27,104 bases of DNA, taken from assembly GCA_016937995.1 (NCBI GenBank), contig JAFGVM010000087.1, positions 1 through 27,104 on the forward strand, given 5' to 3'. The notes below the pieces were generated by a model. That model did not search any database. It had not been told where the DNA came from and saw nothing but the letters and a program-made list of their open reading frames with translations. Positions within the stretch are counted from its first letter, which is position 1; every line of letters begins with the position of its first letter. Of the stretch, positions 9,805-23,015 are shown one piece after another. This stretch comes from Candidatus Delongbacteria bacterium (GTDB taxonomy: Bacteria; UBA4055). A program made the translations under genes and the position numbers.

Positions 9805-12800
9805 TTAAAATAATTTTGATCGATTCGAAAACAAATCCCTAGCAACTATCTTACCTCTCTCAAAGAACGCATACATCACAGGAACTACTGTTAAAACAAA
9901 TATCGTGGAAGCCGTAAGTCCTCCAATGGTTGTAACTGAGAAAGAATACCAGAAATTCTTCTCTGAATCAGAATTAATGATCAAAGGTAAAACACCCAGG
10001 ATCGTAGTTATTGAGGTCATAAGCACCGGTCTTACCCTTTCTGATGTCCCTAACACAATAGCATTCATCAGATCAAGACCCTGTTTTCTTTTTGTGTTTA
10101 TATGATAGATCAATATGATAGAATTGTTTACTACGATACCCTCCAGAAGAATAACTCCCATATAAGCATCCTCTCCAAAATGTTCTCCGAGAACAAGAAA
10201 GATCAGGAACACACCTGCCAAGCTTAAAGGAATGCTCAGAATTATCACAAATGGATGCAGCAGGGACTCAAACAAGGATGCTGTTACCATAAAAACAAGT
10301 ATGATCGCCAGAAGAAGTAATCCCATTACCTCTTCTTCTTCTTCATCTGTCATAAATCTATCATCCGTAGTATCGAATTCGTATCCGGCCGGTAAAGGAT
10401 AAGTTTCTTCTATGGAAGTTTTAAATTGCTCAACCTGCTTTGATGAGGAATTGTAATCATACCTGATGTACCTCGTATAACTCTGATCCTCTTTTTCAAT
10501 TTCACTCATTACAGGAAATTTTTTTATCTCAGCGATCTCTTTGACCCTGAAACCTCTTCCCTGTGAATAAATAATCTTATCCATAAGATCTTTAATATTG
10601 AACTCATCATAATCGGAATACTTGATATTCATTTCGATCTCTTCCTCATTGAACAGAATACTTCTTCCTCTGCTACCGCTTGATGCAAGGATCTCAAAGA
10701 CCAGATCTCGGATATTTATATCATAATCAGCAAGCTTTCTTCTATTGATATTTATCGTGTAGTTGAACATGTCGGATGATCTCCACCATCTGTTCGTTGC
10801 AGCGATATCTACTTCACTGACCCTTCTGTCAGACAGTAGATATTTCTCAAGTTTTAATGCTTCCTCTTTTAATCCTTCGTAGCTAAAACCTTTTAAACGT
10901 AAAGTTGAATTATATGACTTTGATGTAGTTCCTCCTGATCTGTAGCTGCTTGATGAATTAAGAGGGTTATAAATTGATATAAATGGTCCCTGAAAATTCA
11001 CAGCCATTGACACCATTTCATTTTCCATGTCAAAAGGAGCGATCGAATAGAATTGTTCTTCTGTATAATTAACTTGTAAACTAACATATGTAGGGTAAAT
11101 ATCAGTTGTGAAAGACTTATATCCTCCCACTTCAAGAACTCTTTTTTCGAATTTTTCAATGATCTTTTCTGTCATATCGATAGTTGATCCAACAGGCATA
11201 TGAATTCTGAGATATACTGAGTTTTCGGGATTCCAATTGAACCTTCTACCCTGATCAACATAGTTTTGAAACAGGAAATATGAAAGATAAAATATAACTC
11301 CGGTAAGTATCAGAACTATCTTTCTGTTGTTAATAAATACAGTAAGGAATTTTTTGTAACCTTTAAAACTACCGTTCACTTTCTTCATAGCTTTATTACG
11401 GTACTTTTCAGTAAGGAATATCCTTGTTAAGATCGGTATGAATGTTATAGATACCAGCAATGATGATAATAAACTTGTCCCGACTGCCACTGCCAGTGGT
11501 ATCCAGTACAGTCTTCTTTCTCCGGACATATAGAGGAACGGTATAAATACCACTAAAGTCGTTAAAGTTGAACTTACAACAGGTAAAATGACCTCTTTTG
11601 TTCCTTCAATGGATGCTCTGACCTTATCCATTCCTTCATTGAAAAGCCTGATAATATTTTCCAGAACAACAACTGAATTATCCACCAGAAGTCCGAAACT
11701 AAGTATTAATCCGGACAAAGTCACAATGTTCAAAGAATAGTTAGCAAAATACAGCAGAAAACCGCTCATTAAAAGACTTAAAGCAACTGATATTATAACT
11801 ACAATTGAAAGTTTTACATTTAACAGGAATATCATTAGAACGAGCATTATGACGACAATACTGAATAATGCTCTCACTTTGATATCGTCAAGTTCCTCCC
11901 TGATCGTTTCTGTCGAATCAAAATTTACTTCTGCCTCAATTGAACCGTCATTGTGTTTTTCCCTAAAATTCTGAACTGCCTTATCAACAAGATCGGCAGT
12001 TGTTATGGCATTTGCACCAGGTTCTTTCATTATAACCACATTGACAGATGCTTTACCGTTTATCCTGTTTATACTTGTTGGATCTTTTTTTGCGATCACA
12101 ACTTCAGCAATATCAGATATTTTGATAGGAATACCATTCCTGTAATCCACAACAGCATTATTAATATCGTTAAGGTTTTTGAATTTATTATTTATCGTAA
12201 CTGAAAATTCATAGTTCTTATCATTGCCCTCAACCGTTCCGGCATTCGTTGTGTTATCAAGCTGATAGAGAATATAATTCAATACGGATGTGCTTATCTT
12301 ATAGAATTCTGCTTTTTCTCTATCTACCAGTACTCGTATCTCGTTTTCCGGGATACCGTTTATTTCAACACTGTTTATACCTTCTATCGACAGTATTTCA
12401 TTCTTTAATTCATTCTCTATGATCATTCCTGTTTCATCAAGAGAAAGATTACCGAAAATATTATAGCTTACAAGCTCACGGCTTTCATCAAGTTCATCCC
12501 TTGGAACATATTTCATAATGAACACAGAGTTTCTAACTGCTTCAGGAAGATCTTTTCTTACCTGAAATAATTTTTCATTCAAAGCGAGATAGGCGAAGTT
12601 CATATCAGTATCTCTTTTATACTCGATAGTGATCGTACCTCTACCGCTTTCAGAGCTGGATGTTACTTTATGAATATTCTCCAGAGTATATACCTGAGAT
12701 TCTACCGGGGAGATAACTTTTGTCTCCATTGTTTCAGGAGATACATTATTCCATCTTGCATAAACTTTCAGGTTGGGATATTGTGTATCCGGTTTTAATT

Positions 12801-12897
12801 CCAGAGGAATATTATAAAATGATATCAGGCCGAGTATCACTATACTAATGAAGAACATTATGATCGTGACCGGTCTTTGTAAAATTTTATCTAACAT
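9805..12897 (-). CDS. RND efflux transporter, inner-membrane subunit (1030 aa)
   Basis: This is a proton-driven pump of the resistance-nodulation-division superfamily (Pfam ACR_tran), working with a periplasmic adaptor and an outer-membrane channel. The length is normal for AcrB/MdtB-like proteins. It has TM1 (residues ~9-29), a first periplasmic domain, TM2-6 (from ~340), TM7 (~525-545), a second periplasmic domain, and TM8-12. TM4 carries GLLVDNSVVVLEN with Asp406 and Asn407 where AcrB has two Asp. TM10 reads GIVVNNSIILIYHIN, without the Lys of the AcrB-type relay (AKN). The cell substrate cannot be inferred. ATG 12895-12897 has GGAAGG upstream (12905-12910). It is the last gene of the TolC-MFP-16778-RND-RND cluster, 109 bases after the larger RND gene, with palindromes and a tandem repeat in the gap. 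Confidence 0.9.
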   Translation of the reverse strand: MLDKILQRPVTIIMFFISIVILGLISFYNIPLELKPDTQYPNLKVYARWNNVSPETMETKVISPVESQVYTLENIHKVTSSSESGRGTITIEYKRDTDMNFAYLALNEKLFQVRKDLPEAVRNSVFIMKYVPRDELDESRELVSYNIFGNLSLDETGMIIENELKNEILSIEGINSVEINGIPENEIRVLVDREKAEFYKISTSVLNYILYQLDNTTNAGTVEGNDKNYEFSVTINNKFKNLNDINNAVVDYRNGIPIKISDIAEVVIAKKDPTSINRINGKASVNVVIMKEPGANAITTADLVDKAVQNFREKHNDGSIEAEVNFDSTETIREELDDIKVRALFSIVVIMLVLMIFLLNVKLSIVVIISVALSLLMSGFLLYFANYSLNIVTLSGLILSFGLLVDNSVVVLENIIRLFNEGMDKVRASIEGTKEVILPVVSSTLTTLVVFIPFLYMSGERRLYWIPLAVAVGTSLLSSLLVSITFIPILTRIFLTEKYRNKAMKKVNGSFKGYKKFLTVFINNRKIVLILTGVIFYLSYFLFQNYVDQGRRFNWNPENSVYLRIHMPVGSTIDMTEKIIEKFEKRVLEVGGYKSFTTDIYPTYVSLQVNYTEEQFYSIAPFDMENEMVSMAVNFQGPFISIYNPLNSSSSYRSGGTTSKSYNSTLRLKGFSYEGLKEEALKLEKYLLSDRRVSEVDIAATNRWWRSSDMFNYTININRRKLADYDINIRDLVFEILASSGSRGRSILFNEEEIEMNIKYSDYDEFNIKDLMDKIIYSQGRGFRVKEIAEIKKFPVMSEIEKEDQSYTRYIRYDYNSSSKQVEQFKTSIEETYPLPAGYEFDTTDDRFMTDEEEEEVMGLLLLAIILVFMVTASLFESLLHPFVIILSIPLSLAGVFLIFLVLGEHFGEDAYMGVILLEGIVVNNSIILIYHINTKRKQGLDLMNAIVLGTSERVRPVLMTSITTILGVLPLIINSDSEKNFWYSFSVTTIGGLTASTIFVLTVVPVMYAFFERGKIVARDLFSNRSKLF

Positions 12898-12910
12898 GTT
12901 TTTTCCTTCC

Positions 12911-12936
12911 GGTCGTACACATCAGTACGACCCTAC
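12911..12936. repeat. GTAGGG-family intergenic palindrome, copy 2
   Basis: GGTCGTAC (12911-12918) and GTACGACC (12925-12932) form a perfect 8-bp stem with a six-base loop, followed by CTAC. On the - strand it starts GTAGGGTCGTAC and ends 13 bases before the RND start codon. The stem is identical to that of copy 3 (17972-17997), which sits in the same place relative to the next gene. Confidence 0.85.
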
Positions 12937-12965
12937 GGTTTTGTTTGTCGTGGTTTGTGGTTTCG

Positions 12966-12983
12966 GGTACAAGATCTTGTGCC
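12966..12983. repeat. Near-perfect palindrome GGTACAAGATCTTGTGCC
   Basis: The two 9-base arms pair fully with one G-T pair and no loop. It touches the heptamer repeat at 12981-13022. It resembles the other intergenic palindromes in position but does not carry the GTAGGG head. Confidence 0.6.
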
Positions 12984-13022
12984 ACTTGCCACTTGCCACT
13001 TGCCACTTACCACTTACCACTA
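12981..13022. repeat. Heptanucleotide tandem repeat (GCCACTT-like, six copies)
   Basis: The units are GCCACTT four times (12981-13008), then ACCACTT (13009-13015) and ACCACTA (13016-13022), followed by a weaker ATCACTA. The repeat runs into the 3' end of the larger RND gene: the last codons (GKW) and the TAA stop are made from repeat units. Confidence 0.9.
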
Positions 13023-16000
13023 ATCACTATCTTTTTCTCTTTCTTCAAAGCCTCGAATACAACAGGTAAAATTATCAATACCAGCATTGTAGCAGCAGAA
13101 AGTCCGAAAATAACGGTTATAGCCAAAGGTTTTCTTATCTCTGATGATCCACCCCAGCCAATTGCCATAGGGATCATACCGAATACAGTGGAAACAGTTG
13201 TCATTAATATCGGCCTTAATCTCTTCTTACTTGCCTCAAGTATAGCATCTCTTATCGAGAGACCTGATTTTACTCCGTTCTCTATAAAATCTATCTTCAC
13301 GATCGCATCATTCACAACTATACCTATCAGCATTATCATTCCTATTCCTGAAAGTATGTTAAATGATTGACCTGTTACAAATAGTCCGATAGTTACACCT
13401 ATAAAAGCAAAAGGTACACTGAAGACAATTATGAAAGGGCTTAATAAAGATTCGAACTGTGAAGCAAGGACCATATAGACCAGGACAAAAGATAACAGGA
13501 ACATGAAAATGATCTGCTTCATTGATTCTTCCATTTCACTATTTTGGCCTCCTATTACAATCCTCATACCCTTGTATAGCTGAACGTTTGCCAATTTATT
13601 TTCAACATCTTTTATGACCTTGTCAAACCTGCCCTCCACAATATTTGCTGTGATAGTGAAAACTCGGTTCTGACTTTCATGTTTAATCGTCTCAGGTCCG
13701 TTCACAAAATCTATTGTTACTATTTTATCCAGCGGAATTACAATATCACCCTTTCTGTAAACAGTTTTGATCACATTTTTAATATTCTGACCCAATTCAT
13801 CCGCAGTTCCTACAATAATATCCACTGGTTTGTTATTCTCGGTTATCTGAACTGCTGTTTCCCCCTTTATCATTGTTTTGATAAAATTTGAAACTTCCAT
13901 CTTGGAAAGATTATAATCTTCCAGTAATTTCGTATTGAACTCTATCTGTATCTGAGGTTTATTTCCAGAGTAATCAGTCTTTATCTCACTTAAATTATCG
14001 ATCTGCTGCAGATCTTCCATAACCTTCTCAGAAATTTCAATTAAATTGGAGAGGTTACTTCCTGATATCTTAACACTGATATCCCCTTCCTCAGGTTTTA
14101 TCATTTCACCCAGAATTGAAACATCTGTATTTATGTTAAGCTTGATGTCTGATTCAAGACTGGAATTATATTTTGTAATATCAGCTCTCAAATTCTTTAC
14201 AAATTTTTTGGTTGAAATATTACTTTTCAGTTTTACCTGAATATCACCTTTGTAAACTGTAGCCCCGGTAAGCAAAGATTTCTCATCATAGACACCTCCG
14301 GTCGAGAACACCGAAATTACACCGTCAAGTTTTTCGATCATCTTCTCATAATCTGTTATTATATTTTCTGTTTTAAAAATGCTAGTACCCGGATTAAGTT
14401 CGACCGAAAGAATGAATTCATGACTGTCAACATCAGGCATCATCCTTTTTTCAATCCCTAATGATATCAGTAATGAGAGCAACAGAACTCCAACTGCCAT
14501 TGTTAAGGTTATTTTTTTATACTCAAGAGCTTTTAAAAGCACAATATGATACTTTTCCTCGAACCATTCATATGATCTGTCAAATACTATCAATATCGGT
14601 TTTGAGATTATAAGAACGAATTTTATAAATGCTTTTCCCCAGAAGATGAATAATCCTATCAATACTGCAACTGACCCGAAGATAACTAATTTTAAAAATT
14701 TTCTGATCCTCGTTAAAAAGAATACTTCCCTTACTATTTTTTTATCAACTTTGTAAAACCTTGCCGGGTTGAAGATACCGAATAAATTGAGCACAAAGAC
14801 TATTCCTCCAAGAATATATGCATAAAGCATAAATCCGTTCGTACTTAATTCTTCTTCATATGGCTGGAGTATATCATTTATGAATGTTGATATATCATAC
14901 AGAAAATTATCTACAGTACCTATGAGGAATGAAAAATTTGAGAAGGAGATCAGTTGTTGAATAGGTTCAAAATAATCGATCTTGGTAATAAATGCAGCAG
15001 GTATACTGAGAAGCAAGATCACAGTAAACCAGATAAAATTTATAAGATAGAAGTTGAATTTATCCTTAAAATGCAGATCCTTATTTTTCCTTTGACTTAC
15101 GAAAAACTCAATTGATTTTAATACCGGATCTGTTATAATCGCAAGAAATAGAATATAGACCAATGCATGTTCATCTATTGGTATTTTACTTATTTTAACT
15201 ATTCCGAAATATACTGCTGTCATAACGGCCCAGTATATTCCGGTTTTGAATATAATTCCGTTATCACTTGTAATACTCTTATCCTCTTTCTCAATTACTC
15301 TTTTCTCGATAGAGAATTTAGAATATAACACTGGGACAAGTGTCAGTGACACAAATAAAGAACTTATCAAAGCGAAAGCTACAGAGATAGACTGATCTTT
15401 GAACAGAACCCCTGCGGCACCTGATACGAATACTACAGGCATGAAAACAATGATCGTAGTAAATGTTGACGCTGACACAGGAAGAATAACTTCTTTGACA
15501 CCATCATAACATGCATCAAAAATACTTTTACCCATATTTCTGTGCCTTGTAATATTTTCCAGTACTACAATGGAGTTGTCAACGAGCATACCTATTCCAA
15601 GTGCAAAACCGGATAAAGACATCAGGTTCAGAGATATTTTTGAAAAATATAACAAAGAGAAAGTTGCAAAAATACTTATCGGCATTGCCAATGAAATGTT
15701 CAATGGCGACTTGAAATCTCTGAGAAATAGAAATAATGTAAGGAAAGATAATATTCCTCCCAGTAATATAGCAGATACCACGTTACTGATCGACTCCGAG
15801 ATAAAATCCGACTGGTCGTAAACTATGTTCAGATTCACATCGAGATTCCCTTTGAATTCCTCCATAACGTCCTTAACGAGTCCTGATACAAGTACAGCAT
15901 TTGCATCACCGTCTTTCCTTATCAGAATTCCTGTAGAATTGTCTCCATTATATCTTGTAAATGATTTTTTTTCTTTATCTGAATAACCGACAGATGCCAC

Positions 16001-16756
16001 ATCTTTAATATAAATATTTCTCTTGTTCGACAATTGTTTTATGAGTGTGTTCTCAATGTCAGATAGGTCTGCAATCTCTGATGAAATAACAAGATCGTAA
16101 ATATAAACATCATCTCTTACTGTACCACCTGATGAATTGGTATTGGCACTTTTTACGGCATTTGTCAAAGTATTGAATGATATTCCGAAAGTATTAAGTT
16201 TATCAATGTCCGCTTCTATCCGTATCTCTGTCTCCTCACCACCGATGACATCAGCCATTGCAACACCATCGATCTGCTCGATACGCTTCTTTATAATATG
16301 TTCCGCAACATCCCTTGTGGTTTTAGGATCTTTTCCTGTTACAGCTAGGATCATAATAGGCTTTTGTCCAGGATCTATACGGAGAATGTTTGGTCTTTCA
16401 GCAGTTTCCGGAAGACTGACAGCATCAAGTTTCTCACGAAGATAAAGAACTGTAAAGTCCATATCTGTTCCCCAGACAAAATCTATCGTTATAAGACTGA
16501 TGTCTTCTTTTGACTCAGATTTTATGCTCTTAATACCCGAAAGACCTGCAATAGAGGCTTCAAGTGGTTCAGTAATAAGTCTTTCTATCTCTTCAGGGTT
16601 ACTTCCTTCATGCTCTGTCCATACGGTCACAGATGGATACTTAATATCGGGTAATAGGTTTACCGGTAATTTATTATATGATATTATTCCGAACACTGTG
16701 ACAGCAGTGAATATCATTATGATCGTTATAGGTCTGAGTAGTATATTTTTAAGCAT
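13007..16756 (-). CDS. RND efflux transporter with an extra transmembrane block (1249 aa)
   Basis: This is a second RND pump subunit of the HAE-1/ACR_tran type. Residues 1-485 are standard: TM1, periplasmic porter region, TM2-6 with GMLVDNSIVVLEN (Asp393, Asn394) in TM4. From about 745 it is standard again: TM7, the second porter domain, and TM8-12 with GIVVNDAIVKIDFIE in TM10. Between TM6 and TM7, where a short cytoplasmic link is usual, it carries about 240 extra residues (~495-735) with about five or six hydrophobic segments (around 505-521, 532-545, 569-590, 641-662, 688-706 and 709-725). The total is therefore ~200 residues above the usual ~1040. ATG 16754-16756 has AGAGGA upstream. It starts 21 bases after the zinc-ribbon/methyltransferase-like gene, so it belongs to the same operon. 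The stop codon lies in a tandem repeat. Confidence 0.9.
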   Translation of the reverse strand: MLKNILLRPITIIMIFTAVTVFGIISYNKLPVNLLPDIKYPSVTVWTEHEGSNPEEIERLITEPLEASIAGLSGIKSIKSESKEDISLITIDFVWGTDMDFTVLYLREKLDAVSLPETAERPNILRIDPGQKPIMILAVTGKDPKTTRDVAEHIIKKRIEQIDGVAMADVIGGEETEIRIEADIDKLNTFGISFNTLTNAVKSANTNSSGGTVRDDVYIYDLVISSEIADLSDIENTLIKQLSNKRNIYIKDVASVGYSDKEKKSFTRYNGDNSTGILIRKDGDANAVLVSGLVKDVMEEFKGNLDVNLNIVYDQSDFISESISNVVSAILLGGILSFLTLFLFLRDFKSPLNISLAMPISIFATFSLLYFSKISLNLMSLSGFALGIGMLVDNSIVVLENITRHRNMGKSIFDACYDGVKEVILPVSASTFTTIIVFMPVVFVSGAAGVLFKDQSISVAFALISSLFVSLTLVPVLYSKFSIEKRVIEKEDKSITSDNGIIFKTGIYWAVMTAVYFGIVKISKIPIDEHALVYILFLAIITDPVLKSIEFFVSQRKNKDLHFKDKFNFYLINFIWFTVILLLSIPAAFITKIDYFEPIQQLISFSNFSFLIGTVDNFLYDISTFINDILQPYEEELSTNGFMLYAYILGGIVFVLNLFGIFNPARFYKVDKKIVREVFFLTRIRKFLKLVIFGSVAVLIGLFIFWGKAFIKFVLIISKPILIVFDRSYEWFEEKYHIVLLKALEYKKITLTMAVGVLLLSLLISLGIEKRMMPDVDSHEFILSVELNPGTSIFKTENIITDYEKMIEKLDGVISVFSTGGVYDEKSLLTGATVYKGDIQVKLKSNISTKKFVKNLRADITKYNSSLESDIKLNINTDVSILGEMIKPEEGDISVKISGSNLSNLIEISEKVMEDLQQIDNLSEIKTDYSGNKPQIQIEFNTKLLEDYNLSKMEVSNFIKTMIKGETAVQITENNKPVDIIVGTADELGQNIKNVIKTVYRKGDIVIPLDKIVTIDFVNGPETIKHESQNRVFTITANIVEGRFDKVIKDVENKLANVQLYKGMRIVIGGQNSEMEESMKQIIFMFLLSFVLVYMVLASQFESLLSPFIIVFSVPFAFIGVTIGLFVTGQSFNILSGIGMIMLIGIVVNDAIVKIDFIENGVKSGLSIRDAILEASKKRLRPILMTTVSTVFGMIPMAIGWGGSSEIRKPLAITVIFGLSAATMLVLIILPVVFEALKKEKKIVISGKW

Positions 16757-16777: not shown

Positions 16778-17956
16778 TTAACCGAAAATCTTTCCCAAAA
16801 CTCCAGGTATTGATAAAAATAGAGTTATCAACAAAATAATTCCTACAAGAACTCTCTTTGGCAAACTTGCATTAGCTTCCATATATGCATATCCTGCGAG
16901 CATGAGCAAACCAGGGAAACCAATAACCAATAATAATGGCAGAGCTATTAACCAGTGAAATAATACCATAAATGGTGTAAATGATATAGTTGACATAAAT
17001 ATTGCCCAACTTACCCAATACATCGTCAAGCCGACTATGGTAACAAACAACATATATAAAGCATTATTCTTATTCTCTTTTCTCTCGCTAACCTGACTAC
17101 CTAGATATTCAATTTTTTTCTTCAAGATATCAGGTATCTGTAAGAATATCACATATATCATGTATTTAAACGTACTCTTCCTGCTTGAACTGAAATGTTC
17201 ATTAATTGCTTCATCTAAAATATCGTTGTAATTTTTGATAACAGGAGGCGGATCTTTGTATCCAAGATAGAATTTGCAATTATCGTATACTGTTTCCAGA
17301 GGAATATCTTCTAATCCTAGTTCAAAATCATACTCAAGTACATCCAGTCCATGATCTTTAAGAACTTTTGTATAGTCCTTCCCAAATCTTCTATAATTTC
17401 CGAGTATACCGTACAACTTAAATCTATCATTATATGAAGTGATCGGCATTTCATAAGTTGTTTCTCTATTCTCATCGATATTAGCCTGTAGGACTATAAA
17501 ACCATCAAATGTAATGATCCGGTTCAACTCTTTGATCACCATTTTATAGGATGGTAATTTTTCCAGAACATAATTACATATTATTACATCAAAGTGATCA
17601 TTCGGATATTTACCCTTTAACTCTTCATCCCTGATGGAAAAATCTCCGGTCGAATTGAATATCTTAACTTCCGTATTAGGAAAATTCTTAAAATATTCAG
17701 TGATCTCGTTCTTTTCGCTGATGACAAGAATTTTTAATTCCCCTTTCAGCAGTTCAGTTCTTGACTGTAAAAATAAAAGAAGTGTTCGCTCTTCTTTTGA
17801 AGAGGCACATATCGGACAGTAATTACTTTTACCTCCGTCTTTTCCGTAAGTAGCCATCCTGTAGAATCTGCCGCAGAACGGGCAGTATAATTCATTACCC
17901 GCAAAGTAATGAGACTTATACAGTACGTAATCTTCTTTTATCTTTTCAAATGCCAT
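16778..17956 (-). CDS. Zinc-ribbon / methyltransferase-like protein with C-terminal membrane helices
   Basis: In 392 residues three parts are visible. First, an N-terminal zinc ribbon with CPFC (25-28) and CPIC (47-50). Second, a Rossmann-like domain (~70-235) resembling class I SAM-dependent methyltransferases through HFDVIICNYVLEKLP and LNRIITFDGFIVLQ. Its motif I is ILVISEKNEI, with no glycine-rich loop, so SAM binding may be lost or changed. Third, a membrane region with about three helices (~300-325, 327-356, 367-390). The zinc-ribbon plus methyltransferase pairing recalls proteins from polysaccharide clusters; the membrane extension and the location between MFP and RND genes are unusual. 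It lies 21 bases before the 1249-aa RND gene. Function is unknown; it might modify or assemble the pump or its substrate. Confidence 0.7.
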   Translation of the reverse strand: MAFEKIKEDYVLYKSHYFAGNELYCPFCGRFYRMATYGKDGGKSNYCPICASSKEERTLLLFLQSRTELLKGELKILVISEKNEITEYFKNFPNTEVKIFNSTGDFSIRDEELKGKYPNDHFDVIICNYVLEKLPSYKMVIKELNRIITFDGFIVLQANIDENRETTYEMPITSYNDRFKLYGILGNYRRFGKDYTKVLKDHGLDVLEYDFELGLEDIPLETVYDNCKFYLGYKDPPPVIKNYNDILDEAINEHFSSSRKSTFKYMIYVIFLQIPDILKKKIEYLGSQVSERKENKNNALYMLFVTIVGLTMYWVSWAIFMSTISFTPFMVLFHWLIALPLLLVIGFPGLLMLAGYAYMEANASLPKRVLVGIILLITLFLSIPGVLGKIFG

Positions 17957-18095: not shown

Positions 18096-19313
18096 TTATT
18101 CTATTACCTTTACATCCGCATCATGTGCCAATGTGTAATTATTCGTTACAACAACATCATCTCCTAACTTCAACTTCGGATCTTTCTCATCAAGAATGAT
18201 CTCTGTATAATTAAAATTTGAAAGTCCTGTGTTGACATATATCCATTTGGCTTTCTCATCCTGAACAATAAATACAAGTTTTCTGTTGTCCCTTGTCAGG
18301 ATCGCTTCATTCGGTACTATTATTTTATCAAAGTAGATCTTACTCTCTATCTTAACATTTCCCCTCATTCCTGATTTAATTTTAAGATCATCGTTGGGTA
18401 TATTGACCAGTATCTTACATGTACCTGATGCCTGATCTATTATCGGAGAAATAGTTTCAATTGTTCCGTTGAATACAATATCCTTCAATGCTTCAAATTT
18501 CACCTCCACCTTTCTACCGTCAGTAAGATCACCCACCTCACTTTCAAGTACAGGTATCTCCATTTCTATCATCTTATAATCAACAATTGTCATGGATCTG
18601 CTGCCGGTATTTAAATACTGACCTTCAACAAGATTCAAATTCGCAACATAACCTGATGATGGTGCTCTTACAGTTGCATACTCATAATCCAGTTTGGCTT
18701 TTTTATAGCTGATCATTGCCTGAGTTAAACCTGTAGAAGATTTCAATACTTCAACACTTCCACCCTGGTTAAAAATAAGGTCAACTTCAAGCTCAAGTTT
18801 TTTATCTTCAAATTCTTTTTCACTGATCTTTCCTGTTCTTCTCTGCTCATTCAATTTATTTATAGCTTCATCAAATTTTTTATCATTGGCTGTTGTACTT
18901 TGATCTTTTATTTCATTTTTCCTTATACCGTAAGCTATCTTAGCCTTCAAAAGATTATCCTTTTCCCTTTCAAGGTTAAGCAGATATTGTTCATTATCCA
19001 GAGTGAAAATAAGATCACCCTTGGATACGTAGGAATTTTCTGAGACATATACTTTTTTTACAAAACCACTTACCTGAGGATAAATATCAACTGACCTTTC
19101 AGCTTTAGCAGTTCCGGTAGTATTGATATACATTATCAAATTCTGTTTGGCCAGTTTAACTGTCTTGACCTTTACAAAAGATTTTACCTCTTTTGCCTGA
19201 TCCTTCAGCTCTTTCATCTTGGCATCTTTATCTTCAGCCTTAGGTTTCATTATTAGATATGTTATTACTGCTATGATAATTACTGTCAGAATTATATACG
19301 TTTTATTCTTCAC
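18096..19313 (-). CDS. RND periplasmic adaptor (HlyD/MFP family)
   Basis: This adaptor bridges the RND pump and the outer-membrane channel. The 405 residues have an N-terminal membrane anchor (~5-23) and no lipobox. A first lipoyl half follows (~78-110, SGFVKKVYVSENSYVSKGDLIF), then a long charged alpha-hairpin (~110-215), a second lipoyl half (TVRAPSSGYVANLNLVEGQYL), a beta-barrel region and a C-terminal membrane-proximal domain. The hairpin is longer than in AcrA. The start is GTG (19311-19313), overlapping the TGA of the TolC-like gene as GTGA, which implies translational coupling. Downstream comes a 139-base gap rich in palindromes and then the zinc-ribbon membrane protein gene. Confidence 0.92.
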   Translation of the reverse strand: MKNKTYIILTVIIIAVITYLIMKPKAEDKDAKMKELKDQAKEVKSFVKVKTVKLAKQNLIMYINTTGTAKAERSVDIYPQVSGFVKKVYVSENSYVSKGDLIFTLDNEQYLLNLEREKDNLLKAKIAYGIRKNEIKDQSTTANDKKFDEAINKLNEQRRTGKISEKEFEDKKLELEVDLIFNQGGSVEVLKSSTGLTQAMISYKKAKLDYEYATVRAPSSGYVANLNLVEGQYLNTGSRSMTIVDYKMIEMEIPVLESEVGDLTDGRKVEVKFEALKDIVFNGTIETISPIIDQASGTCKILVNIPNDDLKIKSGMRGNVKIESKIYFDKIIVPNEAILTRDNRKLVFIVQDEKAKWIYVNTGLSNFNYTEIILDEKDPKLKLGDDVVVTNNYTLAHDADVKVIE

Positions 19314-20569
19314 TGTTGTCTCCCTACTGAATTATAAAGATCATATTTCGAAATAATAAAATTGTACAGATAATTAATTTTTCTGTTCTTTGCACTGATA
19401 AAATCATTTCTTGCTTTCAGATAATCTGATACTGATTTATCACCGATTGCAAAAAGTTTTTCGGCCAGTTCCAGATTTTTCTGAGCAAGCTCGATATGTT
19501 TATCTGCCAGCTCCAGATTGTTCTTCTGATTTTGCAGGTCTAATAGCTTTGTTGTGATCTCATTTTTCACTTCCAATATCTTGGATTCCAGAGAAAGCTT
19601 ACTTTTTTTCACTTCAACTTTATTTTTATCTATTCCATTTAAGTCTGAATAGCTTAAGTTAATTGAAAGACTCAAAGATCCAGTAATAAGATCAGATACC
19701 CCTTCGAATGGTTTACCAACAGGTGATGTTTTGTCATAGCTCAATACATCAGTAATACCATAATCATAAGCTAATACTCCTGACAATGAAGGTAAATAAT
19801 TGTCATACTGCATCTTTAGCATAAGATCCTGCTGACCGAGATAGTTCTGATATTTTATTATGTCAGGTCTGTTTTTCAAAGCTTCTTCTATCAGTTCTTT
19901 TTTATCGAAATCAAATACTGTATCCAGTTCTTCTTTGTATTCAATGTCAAATTCGTCATTCTGTATCTGATAGTGCATCAGGTATAATAAATTTTGCTTT
20001 TGTTTTACAAGATCAGATTCTTTATTCTTAAGATCTATAGTATCTTCCGACAGAGTTACTTCGAAGCTTAACAGGTCTGATTGAGACATATTACCCATTG
20101 AAAATCTAAGCTGTGCTTCTTCAAACTTTTTCTGACTGTATTCCAGCTTGTCTTTTTGCAGTTTAAGATTCTCTTTTGCTATCAGTACTCCAAAAAATGC
20201 TGCTGTAACATAATTTTTCATATTGTTCACATTATCAGTGTAATCCAGCGATGTATTGACAGAAGAAACTTTACTGTACTTGTAGTTGTGGATTAGACCA
20301 GGGCTCAAAGTTCCGGATACACCGACTGATGAACTTAAATTCGATCCTAAATTATCTTCATCATCTCCCGACAAGCCGTAACTTCCGTTAGCACTGATAT
20401 CAAAGAATCTGTTCCTTGCATCTTTGACGTTCATATCAGAGATCTGTTTCTGATAATCTGATATCTGTATGCTTTTGTTATTCTTCTCTGCGTAATCCAA
20501 ACACTGGTTTAGATCAAATGTTACAGCATTTGCCAGTTGGAACGCTAAAAGTAAAATTAAAATTCTCAT
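19310..20569 (-). CDS. TolC-family outer-membrane efflux protein
   Basis: This is the outer-membrane channel of the tripartite exporter, first gene of its operon. The 419 residues begin with a signal peptide (MRILILLLAFQLANA, cut before VTF), then the typical start LNQCLDYAEKNNKSIQ. It has the internal OEP duplication: long coiled-coil helices around residues 125-180 and 330-395, with short beta-barrel segments between. ATG (20567-20569) has AGGA upstream. The gene ends in TGA (19310-19312) overlapping the GTG of the adaptor, which also shows that TGA is a normal stop codon in this genome. The upstream region (20570-20751) is filled with dispersed palindromes, and no clear promoter was recognised there. 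Confidence 0.92.
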   Translation of the reverse strand: MRILILLLAFQLANAVTFDLNQCLDYAEKNNKSIQISDYQKQISDMNVKDARNRFFDISANGSYGLSGDDEDNLGSNLSSSVGVSGTLSPGLIHNYKYSKVSSVNTSLDYTDNVNNMKNYVTAAFFGVLIAKENLKLQKDKLEYSQKKFEEAQLRFSMGNMSQSDLLSFEVTLSEDTIDLKNKESDLVKQKQNLLYLMHYQIQNDEFDIEYKEELDTVFDFDKKELIEEALKNRPDIIKYQNYLGQQDLMLKMQYDNYLPSLSGVLAYDYGITDVLSYDKTSPVGKPFEGVSDLITGSLSLSINLSYSDLNGIDKNKVEVKKSKLSLESKILEVKNEITTKLLDLQNQKNNLELADKHIELAQKNLELAEKLFAIGDKSVSDYLKARNDFISAKNRKINYLYNFIISKYDLYNSVGRQQ

Positions 20570-20751: not shown

Positions 20752-21903
20752 TTAATAATCATAAACATCTATTGTCAATTTTTCCACGTTCATTACATAG
20801 AGCCTGCTTCCGATAAAAAATTCTGATTGTTTCATTGTACCAAGAACACCGATAAACGACTTATCAACTACATTAAAGTCAACTCTGTTCAAAAATTGTC
20901 CGTCTTTAAATATATCAATATAGGTTCCTTCCTGATCCAGGCTTCGGTCAATACTCGGTACAACTAAAAGTCTTCCGTATTTATCTGTATAAATATTGCT
21001 TATGGCTTTTTTAAAATTACTTACCTTAATATTTGGGATTCCCTGTGTCATTTTTTTCATTTCTTCTCTGTAAGTACCTTTCTCAGCTTTACCAAGTCTT
21101 ACTTTTTTAAAACTTTTTCTTATCTCGGATCTCTTTTCTCCATTATAATCATAGCAGAATATTCTATATTGTGCATCCGTATTTTCAGATATATATATCA
21201 TATCATTACCCGGTGTGAATGGTATCAATATGTCATTAAAATCAATTTTACCTGACATTAGGTCCTGAACTGAAATTATTTCTTTGTTTAGAGTAGCATC
21301 AGCTTTTATACTGTCTTTATCAAAAACTACCAGAGAAAATTCAACATCAGGTTGAGCACCTTCTTTAGGTATCTGTTCTGCGATATAAGTTACTATCTTG
21401 TTGCCGTCAGGAGATATTTTTGTATTTTGCAGCTGTAATTGATCCATAGTAATATCTTTATAAAAGTTTCCATCAAGATCGAACTTGGAAATTTTACCTG
21501 ATGCAATGCTCATCACGTTCAAAGTGTCATTATCAATGTACATCACAGATGGATAGAACAATTCTCCCGGTCCTCTTCCCTGTCTGCTGATACTCTTTAT
21601 GAACTGTCCTTTATTATCAAACTTTTTAACACTCATTGAAAGGAGATCCAGAATGAACAAGTTCTCATTCTTATCAACTGATAAAGCTATCGGCCTTTTG
21701 AAAAATGCGCTTGAATCTGCCTGATCATCAGTTGTGATCGTATATAATTTTTTAAGATCAAGTTTAGCTTTTGGATCTGCCGGTATATCAGAATTAATAT
21801 ACTGAGTTACCCCGTTTACAACCTTCACCTCCATTGCACCTTGCTTTCCACAAGAGATCAGAACAAGCATTGCTACTATTAAAATTTCTGTTATTCTCTT
21901 CAT
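20752..21903 (-). CDS. 6-bladed beta-propeller lipoprotein (first paralog)
   Basis: The start chosen is ATG 21901-21903, with GGAG (21911-21914) seven bases upstream; an in-frame TTG at 21924 lies inside a palindrome. The 383-aa product begins MKRITEILIVAMLVLISC, a lipoprotein signal with lipobox LISC and Cys18, so it is predicted to be lipid-anchored. The rest is the 6-bladed beta-propeller family frequent in Bacteroidota (DUF5128/NHL-like), with repeated strands such as FILDLLSMSVKKFDNKGQFI and QGRGPGELFYP and the end TIDVYDY. Such proteins are thought to bind ligands at the cell envelope; their roles are mostly unknown. Related proteins lie at 23921-25051 and 26602-27063. A CAAGGGG palindrome sits about 8 bases before its ribosome binding site. 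Confidence 0.85.
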   Translation of the reverse strand: MKRITEILIVAMLVLISCGKQGAMEVKVVNGVTQYINSDIPADPKAKLDLKKLYTITTDDQADSSAFFKRPIALSVDKNENLFILDLLSMSVKKFDNKGQFIKSISRQGRGPGELFYPSVMYIDNDTLNVMSIASGKISKFDLDGNFYKDITMDQLQLQNTKISPDGNKIVTYIAEQIPKEGAQPDVEFSLVVFDKDSIKADATLNKEIISVQDLMSGKIDFNDILIPFTPGNDMIYISENTDAQYRIFCYDYNGEKRSEIRKSFKKVRLGKAEKGTYREEMKKMTQGIPNIKVSNFKKAISNIYTDKYGRLLVVPSIDRSLDQEGTYIDIFKDGQFLNRVDFNVVDKSFIGVLGTMKQSEFFIGSRLYVMNVEKLTIDVYDY

Positions 21904-21921
21904 TTGTTTTCTCCTTTTTTT

Positions 21922-21941
21922 CAAGGGGCTGAAACCCCTTG
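21922..21941. repeat. CAAGGGG/CCCCTTG palindrome, copy 2
   Basis: CAAGGGG (21922-21928) and CCCCTTG (21935-21941) form a perfect 7-bp stem around CTGAAA. It lies in the leader of the propeller gene. Confidence 0.8.
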
Positions 21942-22376: not shown

Positions 22377-23015
22377 TTAAGAATAATTCTTACTTACTTC
22401 ATAGTTAATCTTTTTCTTTACCTCACTCCAAATGATACTTTTTTCTAAAATTATTGGATCGGGTTCACATTCTGCATCAATGAAATATGTTAAACTTTTA
22501 ATTATATGAAATTGATTGATATTTGGAAATTTATGATGAAATAAATCCATCATCTCTGTCAATGAAAATCTTTTAAGAATATAGTAAATATCATAAAAAT
22601 CTTTTTTTGAACCTCGATTTGCAATTGCCGATAGTTTCATTGGTATAATATCTTCAATATCAAAAAGTCTAATACCTTCTATTTCAATAATAGGTTTCAA
22701 TTTAGGATATGAATATTTTATTAGGTCAAGTTTTATGGTATTCTCTGATTTCAAAGGATATTCTACCGAAAGATTTAATGCATTTACTTCTATTGAAATA
22801 TCGGTAATTGTATATTTTTTCTCTAGCAATTCTAACAATTCATCCTTGTTAAATTCTTTATTAGTAAAAAGATCAAGGTCAATTGAAATTCTATGCCCTA
22901 ATTGCAAGGCTAATGCAGTACCACCGACTAGAGCGAAATCATAAAGTTCGGGTATTTGCATCAATTGCTTTAGTAATTCCAGAGTTCTTTTATCGATTGT
23001 TCTGTATTGAAGCAT
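22377..23015 (-). CDS. AbiEii/AbiGii-type nucleotidyltransferase (putative toxin)
   Basis: This is a nucleotidyltransferase of the AbiEii toxin family (Pfam PF08843), known from abortive-infection and type IV toxin-antitoxin systems. The 212 residues show the core LVGGTALALQLGHR (Gly31-Gly32), the DxD metal motif ISIDLDLF (Asp46, Asp48), the strand IKLDLIKY, and the C-terminal MKLSAIANRGSKKDFYDIYYIL block with the conserved KDFYD. The catalytic residues look intact. ATG 23013-23015 lies inside the end of the upstream partner gene (46-base overlap), so the two are translated as a pair. The pair lies between two copies of a 42-bp direct repeat, suggesting acquisition as a module. Whether it acts against phages or stabilises the locus cannot be told. 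Confidence 0.85.
   Translation of the reverse strand: MLQYRTIDKRTLELLKQLMQIPELYDFALVGGTALALQLGHRISIDLDLFTNKEFNKDELLELLEKKYTITDISIEVNALNLSVEYPLKSENTIKLDLIKYSYPKLKPIIEIEGIRLFDIEDIIPMKLSAIANRGSKKDFYDIYYILKRFSLTEMMDLFHHKFPNINQFHIIKSLTYFIDAECEPDPIILEKSIIWSEVKKKINYEVSKNYS

Follow-up and report, generated by a model that had tools for sequence, protein, structure and literature searches.

A conserved transmembrane insert ahead of Ialpha in an RND permease of Candidatus Delongbacteria

The stretch of Candidatus Delongbacteria DNA analyzed here (27,104 nucleotides; GenBank assembly GCA_016937995.1, contig JAFGVM010000087.1; hereafter the window) encodes a TolC-MFP-RND-RND exporter with two RND permease subunits. 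The first of these, RNDlong, departs from the canonical 12-span RND architecture with a short TM6-TM7 link in that this link holds approximately four extra spans. The insert responsible was already in place before the sampled genera of Delongbacteria diverged and is under purifying selection. Of the explanations considered, the likeliest, to which we assign a probability of about 0.4, is that the insert serves as a built-in accessory module in the membrane with its site of action at Ialpha and TM7.

The RNDlong open reading frame is uninterrupted on the minus strand, and the plus strand across the same interval (13007-16756) is full of stops. The encoded protein scores 741.5 bits against the Pfam profile ACR_tran (PF00873; gathering cut-off 28), with both halves matched: residues 2-481 correspond to profile positions 2-489, and the match restarts at residue 724 with profile position 504. 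Between these stretches, just ahead of Ialpha, lies the insert (residues 482-723), in which 242 residues stand in place of 14 profile positions, a net gain of ~228 residues. This break in the profile match confirms the claim of a preliminary description that the protein carries ~240 extra residues between TM6 and TM7, and the bounds given there (~495-735) are close to those derived from the profile. The remaining full-length RND genes of the same genome are without a comparable break. In AcrB, Ialpha is the amphipathic helix that joins TM6 to TM7 and links the two repeats of the transmembrane domain (TMD), which shift as rigid bodies (PMC8277102). The features of the locus are listed in Table 1. 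At the 3' end of the gene, a heptamer tandem repeat (TGCCACT, 6 copies, at 12980-13028) overlaps the last RNDlong codons and the stop; similar stretches are found in eight further places in the genome.

Table 1. Features of the exporter locus and of RNDlong, with positions in the window.
Feature	Position	Strand	Evidence
RND permease subunit 2 (RNDshort, S), 1030 aa	9805..12897	-	Pfam single full-length match
RND permease subunit 1 (RNDlong, F), 1249 aa	13007..16756	-	ORF and translation; Pfam ACR_tran E 1.8e-222 in two stretches
C-terminal RND half, residues 724-1249 (Ialpha, TM7-TM12, periplasmic subdomains)	13007..14587	-	ACR_tran profile 504-1019
Ialpha, residues 727-746, standard RND element, retained	14519..14578	-	alignment to AcrB Ialpha
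Insert, residues 482-723, between TM6 and Ialpha	14588..15313	-	profile break 489/504; alignment of 11 full-length family members
Pre-Ialpha hydrophobic/amphipathic helix (segments e/f), residues 687-726	14579..14698	-	hydropathy; AF2 helix 685-744; hhalign; hmm matches
Insert span d, residues 641-662, out to in	14771..14836	-	hydropathy, loop charges, AF2 helix 640-662
Insert periplasmic loop, residues 591-640, acidic	14837..14986	-	alignment, charges; AF2 helices 597-606, 609-637 (low confidence)
Insert span c, residues 569-590, in to out	14987..15052	-	hydropathy, loop charges, AF2 helix 563-590
Insert span b, residues 530-550, out to in	15107..15169	-	family alignment, hydropathy, loop charges, AF2 helix 529-555
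Insert span a, residues 501-521, in to out	15194..15256	-	hydropathy, loop charges, AF2 helix 502-522
N-terminal RND half, residues 1-481 (TM1-TM6)	15314..16756	-	ACR_tran profile; relay-residue alignment
Methyltransferase-like protein, C-terminal hydrophobic segments	16778..17956	-	Pfam Methyltransf_23 E 1.7e-5, below cut-off
Membrane fusion protein (HlyD/CusB-like)	18096..19313	-	Pfam HlyD_D23 E 2.1e-26
Outer membrane factor (TolC-like)	19310..20569	-	Pfam OEP E 1.4e-54
Six-bladed-propeller-like protein, frequent first operon gene	20752..21924	-	neighbourhoods; weak NCBIfam ScyF match

The insert is present at the same site, in one copy per genome, in all 13 sampled Ca. Delongbacteria genomes (7 genera), and this occurrence in every sampled genome of the phylum shows that it is real and not an assembly error. 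Two of the 13 copies run off contig ends; the 11 full-length proteins, including that of the window, have 1237-1249 aa, and the TM6-TM7 link has 238-244 residues in the members measured. The insert is the fastest-evolving part of the protein: between genera, it is 39-54% identical, compared to 60-79% for the rest, and in the two genera most distant from the window protein, the respective values are 26-28% for the insert and 57-59% for the N-terminal half. Nevertheless, 32 insert columns, clustered at span ends and in the periplasmic loop, are invariant over these 11 divergent members, and dN/dS of the span region (485-665) is 0.067 and 0.105 in the pairs with unsaturated dS.

Hydropathy analysis detects five clear hydrophobic segments in the insert (residues 501-519, 531-549, 572-590, 644-662 and 687-705) plus a sixth that is amphipathic and less pronounced (707-725, muH 0.41) and that among the ten family members scored exceeds the KD threshold of 1.3 only in RNDlong of the window and in L022. 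The preliminary description had counted five or six. The first four are well-supported spans with both ends of the array in the cytoplasm, a topology that fits the charge pattern as well as hydropathy: mean K+R in the successive cytoplasmic, periplasmic, cytoplasmic, periplasmic and cytoplasmic loops is 4.0, 0.8, 5.4, 2.0 and 5.8 (11 members), and this positive-inside pattern, with K/R-rich cytoplasmic loops, holds across the 11 members. Span a opens with a conserved 'GxxFKTGIYW'-like motif, D543-P544...K547 is conserved in span b, and the ~49-residue periplasmic loop contains on average 8.4 acidic residues (11 members) and the invariant F596-E597-P598 and E634-E635. The pre-Ialpha helix that follows is aromatic and amphipathic and continues into Ialpha; we read it, with some uncertainty, as a surface or tilted helix, which leaves four spans, whereas a hairpin of segments e and f would make six. 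As either number is even, the C-terminal half of RNDlong keeps its orientation, in agreement with the loop charges and with the even span count that the preliminary description had demanded of a genuine insertion. AF2 draws helices at 502-522, 529-555, 563-590, 609-637, 640-662 and 685-744 in a model of the insert alone (pLDDT 58) and the same helices in a model of residues 50-1249 (pLDDT 52), the last running as one helix into Ialpha in both (low confidence); the underlying alignments have only 11 rows, so that both models are weak and, at pTM 0.32-0.43, too weak for packing.

For all 11 inserts, Pfam returned only sub-threshold matches (EBP, M56); NCBIfam gave no match, a PDB sequence search yielded none below E 0.69, and Foldseek with a weak model none below E 1.4. 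No free-standing homologue of the four-helix module was found in 386 genomes, and the single match in G186 (E 8.7e-4, columns 84-194) was judged to be due to chance given the unrelated ORF and neighbourhood. Among the papers searched, none was found to describe such an insert, and none of the solved RND structures listed (1031-1069 aa) has one.

The whole-protein profile also finds RND permeases of other families whose match is split at the same site as that of RNDlong. Although the insert itself stands, a long hydrophobic link is not confined to this protein; links of this kind (60-327 residues) characterize a clade of RND permeases separate from MdtB/MdtC, most of them encoded by the leading RND gene of a two-RND operon. 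The measured TM6-TM7 links comprise 327 residues in L091, ~226 in L092, 138 in L102, 132 in L095, ~108 in L093, 106 in L058 and L059, and 62-89 in several others, compared to 0-22 in ordinary RNDs; long ORFs were one basis for selection in this survey beyond Delongbacteria, which does not amount to a census. A sample of 31 families chosen with less bias shows split matches at the site in G018, G070 (the chosen centre) and G031 (two genes), so that such matches are uncommon. The permeases of L058, L059, L091-L097, L100 and L101 resemble RNDlong in possessing a hydrophobic or amphipathic linker at the same site and mostly in being the first of a tandem pair, but their linkers range from 60 to 327 residues and their upstream content is unrelated to the RNDlong module. 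Where tested, in L058, the pre-Ialpha and Ialpha stretch is shared: hhalign aligns insert columns 226-264 with the L058 linker (probability 90%, E 1.6e-6), and only these last ~40 residues, that is, the end of the pre-Ialpha helix and Ialpha, are homologous to linkers from other phyla. The same method detected no homology between the four-span module and the long linkers of L091 (G070) and L102 (G067). Judging from these comparisons, the four-helix module looks specific to Delongbacteria; the ancestral linker in this RND clade was probably shorter and amphipathic, with the module added in the Delongbacteria lineage.

The second permease, RNDshort, has a TM6-TM7 link of 9 residues by the measure on which AcrB scores 20 and directly follows RNDlong wherever the contig extends that far, all these adjacencies in Delongbacteria representing one inherited operon. 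The usual gene order is propeller-like protein, TolC, MFP, RNDlong and RNDshort, with local variation. A six-bladed-propeller-like gene also adjoins RND operons of the F2 type (see below) in other families (L057 2526-3680; L098 8120-9244). The methyltransferase-like gene lies between the MFP and RNDlong genes only in the genus of the window (G000-G002), occurs elsewhere in the operon region in G005 and G006, and is absent from the remaining stretches read. The proposal that the insert binds this adjacent membrane protein is therefore unsupported, the neighbour not being conserved as a partner. Binding to the second RND subunit, the other partner proposed in the preliminary description, is possible. 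Farther away, a short ORF (22377-23015) resembles an AbiEii-type nucleotidyltransferase, as judged by eye from its sequence only.

In phylogenetic trees built with the linkers cut out, the first subunits of tandem operons form one clade (F; support 97/95) that includes two well-supported subclades, and in one of these, F2 (100/100), most members have linkers of 60 residues or more. The second subunits form two S clades of their own; the deeper fork that unites these has weak support (88/80) and includes two single RNDs from the window genome as well. MdtB and MdtC, each the sister of the other (100/100), are placed elsewhere in the tree than the long and short RNDs of the window, which belong to different clades, so that this pair did not arise by one recent duplication. 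Tandem pairs split between separate clades in this manner are found in the window (9805-16756), L058, L059, L091, L093-L096, L100 and L101. The Delongbacteria genomes G004 and G007 carry both types of pair, and in L098 and L108 both RND types occur in one cluster with other genes between them. According to a survey of 920 genomes, tandem RND genes are restricted to the MdtBC clade and go back to one duplication event (PMC10872679). This scheme does not accommodate the tandem pairs described here; from their tree positions, the F/S pairs away from MdtB/MdtC possibly represent a second lineage of heteromeric RND pumps.

RNDlong shares with the HAE1-type RNDs (PF00873; AcrB, MdtB/MdtC, CmeB) both halves, the TM4 Asp, the TM11 Arg and Thr, Ialpha, and the MFP and TolC partners, but differs from them in the net extra residues, the four spans before Ialpha, and N at the positions of AcrB D408 and K940. 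The NCBIfam scores stay below the cut-offs for MdtB and MdtC (PRK10503, 375 vs 1584 bits; PRK10614, 381 vs 1774 bits) and for the heavy-metal RNDs CusA/CzcA (TIGR00914, 437 vs 701 bits). The window operon is similar to those of MdtBC and MuxBC in having two tandem RND permease genes after the MFP; however, MdtB and MdtC, which are ~50% identical (PMC10872679), lack the insert.

The proton-relay Asp of TM4 is D393 in RNDlong (AcrB D407), and AcrB R971 and T978 are conserved as well; AcrB D408 is replaced by N394 and K940 by N, substitutions shared by most of the RNDs aligned from the wider group. The F2 subclade has a TM10 motif, 'GIVVND.I.K.DFI', with a lysine five residues past the K940 position, which is itself N; this residue is K1154 in RNDlong (window 13295-13297, minus strand) and is replaced by A in the genus of G006/G010/G012. 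From its position, the lysine is possibly a relocated relay charge. Two other permeases, L102 3736-7152 (G067) and L117 6692-9835 (from the window's own genome, C37), have T for the TM4 Asp and A for T978 and possibly are not proton-driven in the usual way. The 138-residue linker of L102 contains four hydrophobic segments.

If the insert is an accessory module, its four helices would pack into a small membrane bundle alongside TM6 and TM7, tethered via the pre-Ialpha helix to Ialpha, which links the two transmembrane repeats as they shift relative to each other in the proton cycle, and a neighbour would be contacted through the acidic periplasmic loop. Such a module may, in the manner of AcrZ, modulate coupling or substrate range or, alternatively, fix the arrangement of the long and short subunits. 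AcrZ binds the transmembrane portion of AcrB and alters resistance to a subset of substrates (PMC7267776). The parallel is one of analogy only, namely extra transmembrane material at the RND transmembrane domain: AcrZ is a separate single-span small protein, and no homology is claimed. Several observations count against the accessory module, namely AF2 models too weak for packing (pLDDT 52-58), the lack of an informative relative, the faster evolution of the insert, as a passive peripheral element could show, and the fifth hydrophobic segment, which leaves four versus six spans.

Rather unlikely, in our estimate, is that the insert mediates specificity or assembly in a heteromeric RND trimer, serving as the interface through which the long subunit would recognize the short one and fix the stoichiometry as in MdtB2C. 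The constant position of RNDshort behind RNDlong, the broad congruence of the separate F and S clades, and the fact that S-clade second subunits never have a hydrophobic linker (links of 41 residues or less, the longest being hydrophilic) are consistent with such an interface, and MdtBC provides an example of two RND subunits with divided roles in a B2C complex (PMC4338810). However, there are long linkers without an adjacent second RND (L057, L092, L102, L114 and L115) and tandem pairs without linkers, and L107, a second-position RND outside the S clades, has a 70-residue link. The raw counts across phyla (17 with linker and first of a tandem, 6 with linker and not first, 7 first without linker, 32 neither) suggest a strong association, but it is lost once phylogeny is taken into account (independent-pairs sign test, median p = 1, at most 7 pairs) and was rejected as functional evidence, being a clade effect. 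What is observed here is gene adjacency, and the reviewed protomer-protomer contact of the AcrB TMD is TM1-TM8, not Ialpha (PMC8277102).

Still less probable is a lateral gate or lipid-handling element, in which the helices and the membrane-surface helix would shape the entry of hydrophobic substrates from the inner leaflet or the cytoplasm. The location of the insert, which adjoins TM7 and the cytoplasmic face of the membrane, and the character of the pre-Ialpha helix are compatible with this role, but no conserved substrate-biosynthesis gene was found in the operon neighbourhoods of Delongbacteria. An equally low probability attaches to a lineage-specific, near-neutral membrane anchor or spacer, kept since it is harmless. 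The high evolutionary rate of the insert would suit a spacer of this kind, as would the related linkers, which vary widely in length and whose presence changes at least 7 times on the RND tree; the low dN/dS (0.07-0.11), the invariant columns and the nearly constant length across genera argue against it. An assembly or annotation artefact (chimeric contig, missed frameshift) is practically negligible given 13 independent genomes with the same site and length and neither stops nor frameshifts: close homologues, which an artefact would have left without the insert, carry it throughout, and together with purifying selection and the consistent topology this bears out the original view of a structured insertion.

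Beyond the accessory module, we tentatively consider, as a doubtful but broader reading, a class of exporters with, at its core, an ancient pair of dissimilar RND subunits that did not arise from the MdtBC duplication and of which only the first carries a membrane module at the hinge; in Delongbacteria, this module would be a four-helix domain, producing a 16-span RND that regulates or organizes the hetero-oligomer. The 12-span design of RND pumps is usually regarded as fixed. A conserved four-span module at Ialpha would mean that transmembrane additions can be accommodated and retained by the core at the very point through which proton coupling passes, and an insert at this position is a natural test of the role of that link. 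The linker-bearing clade, in turn, points to two-RND operons outside the MdtBC lineage.
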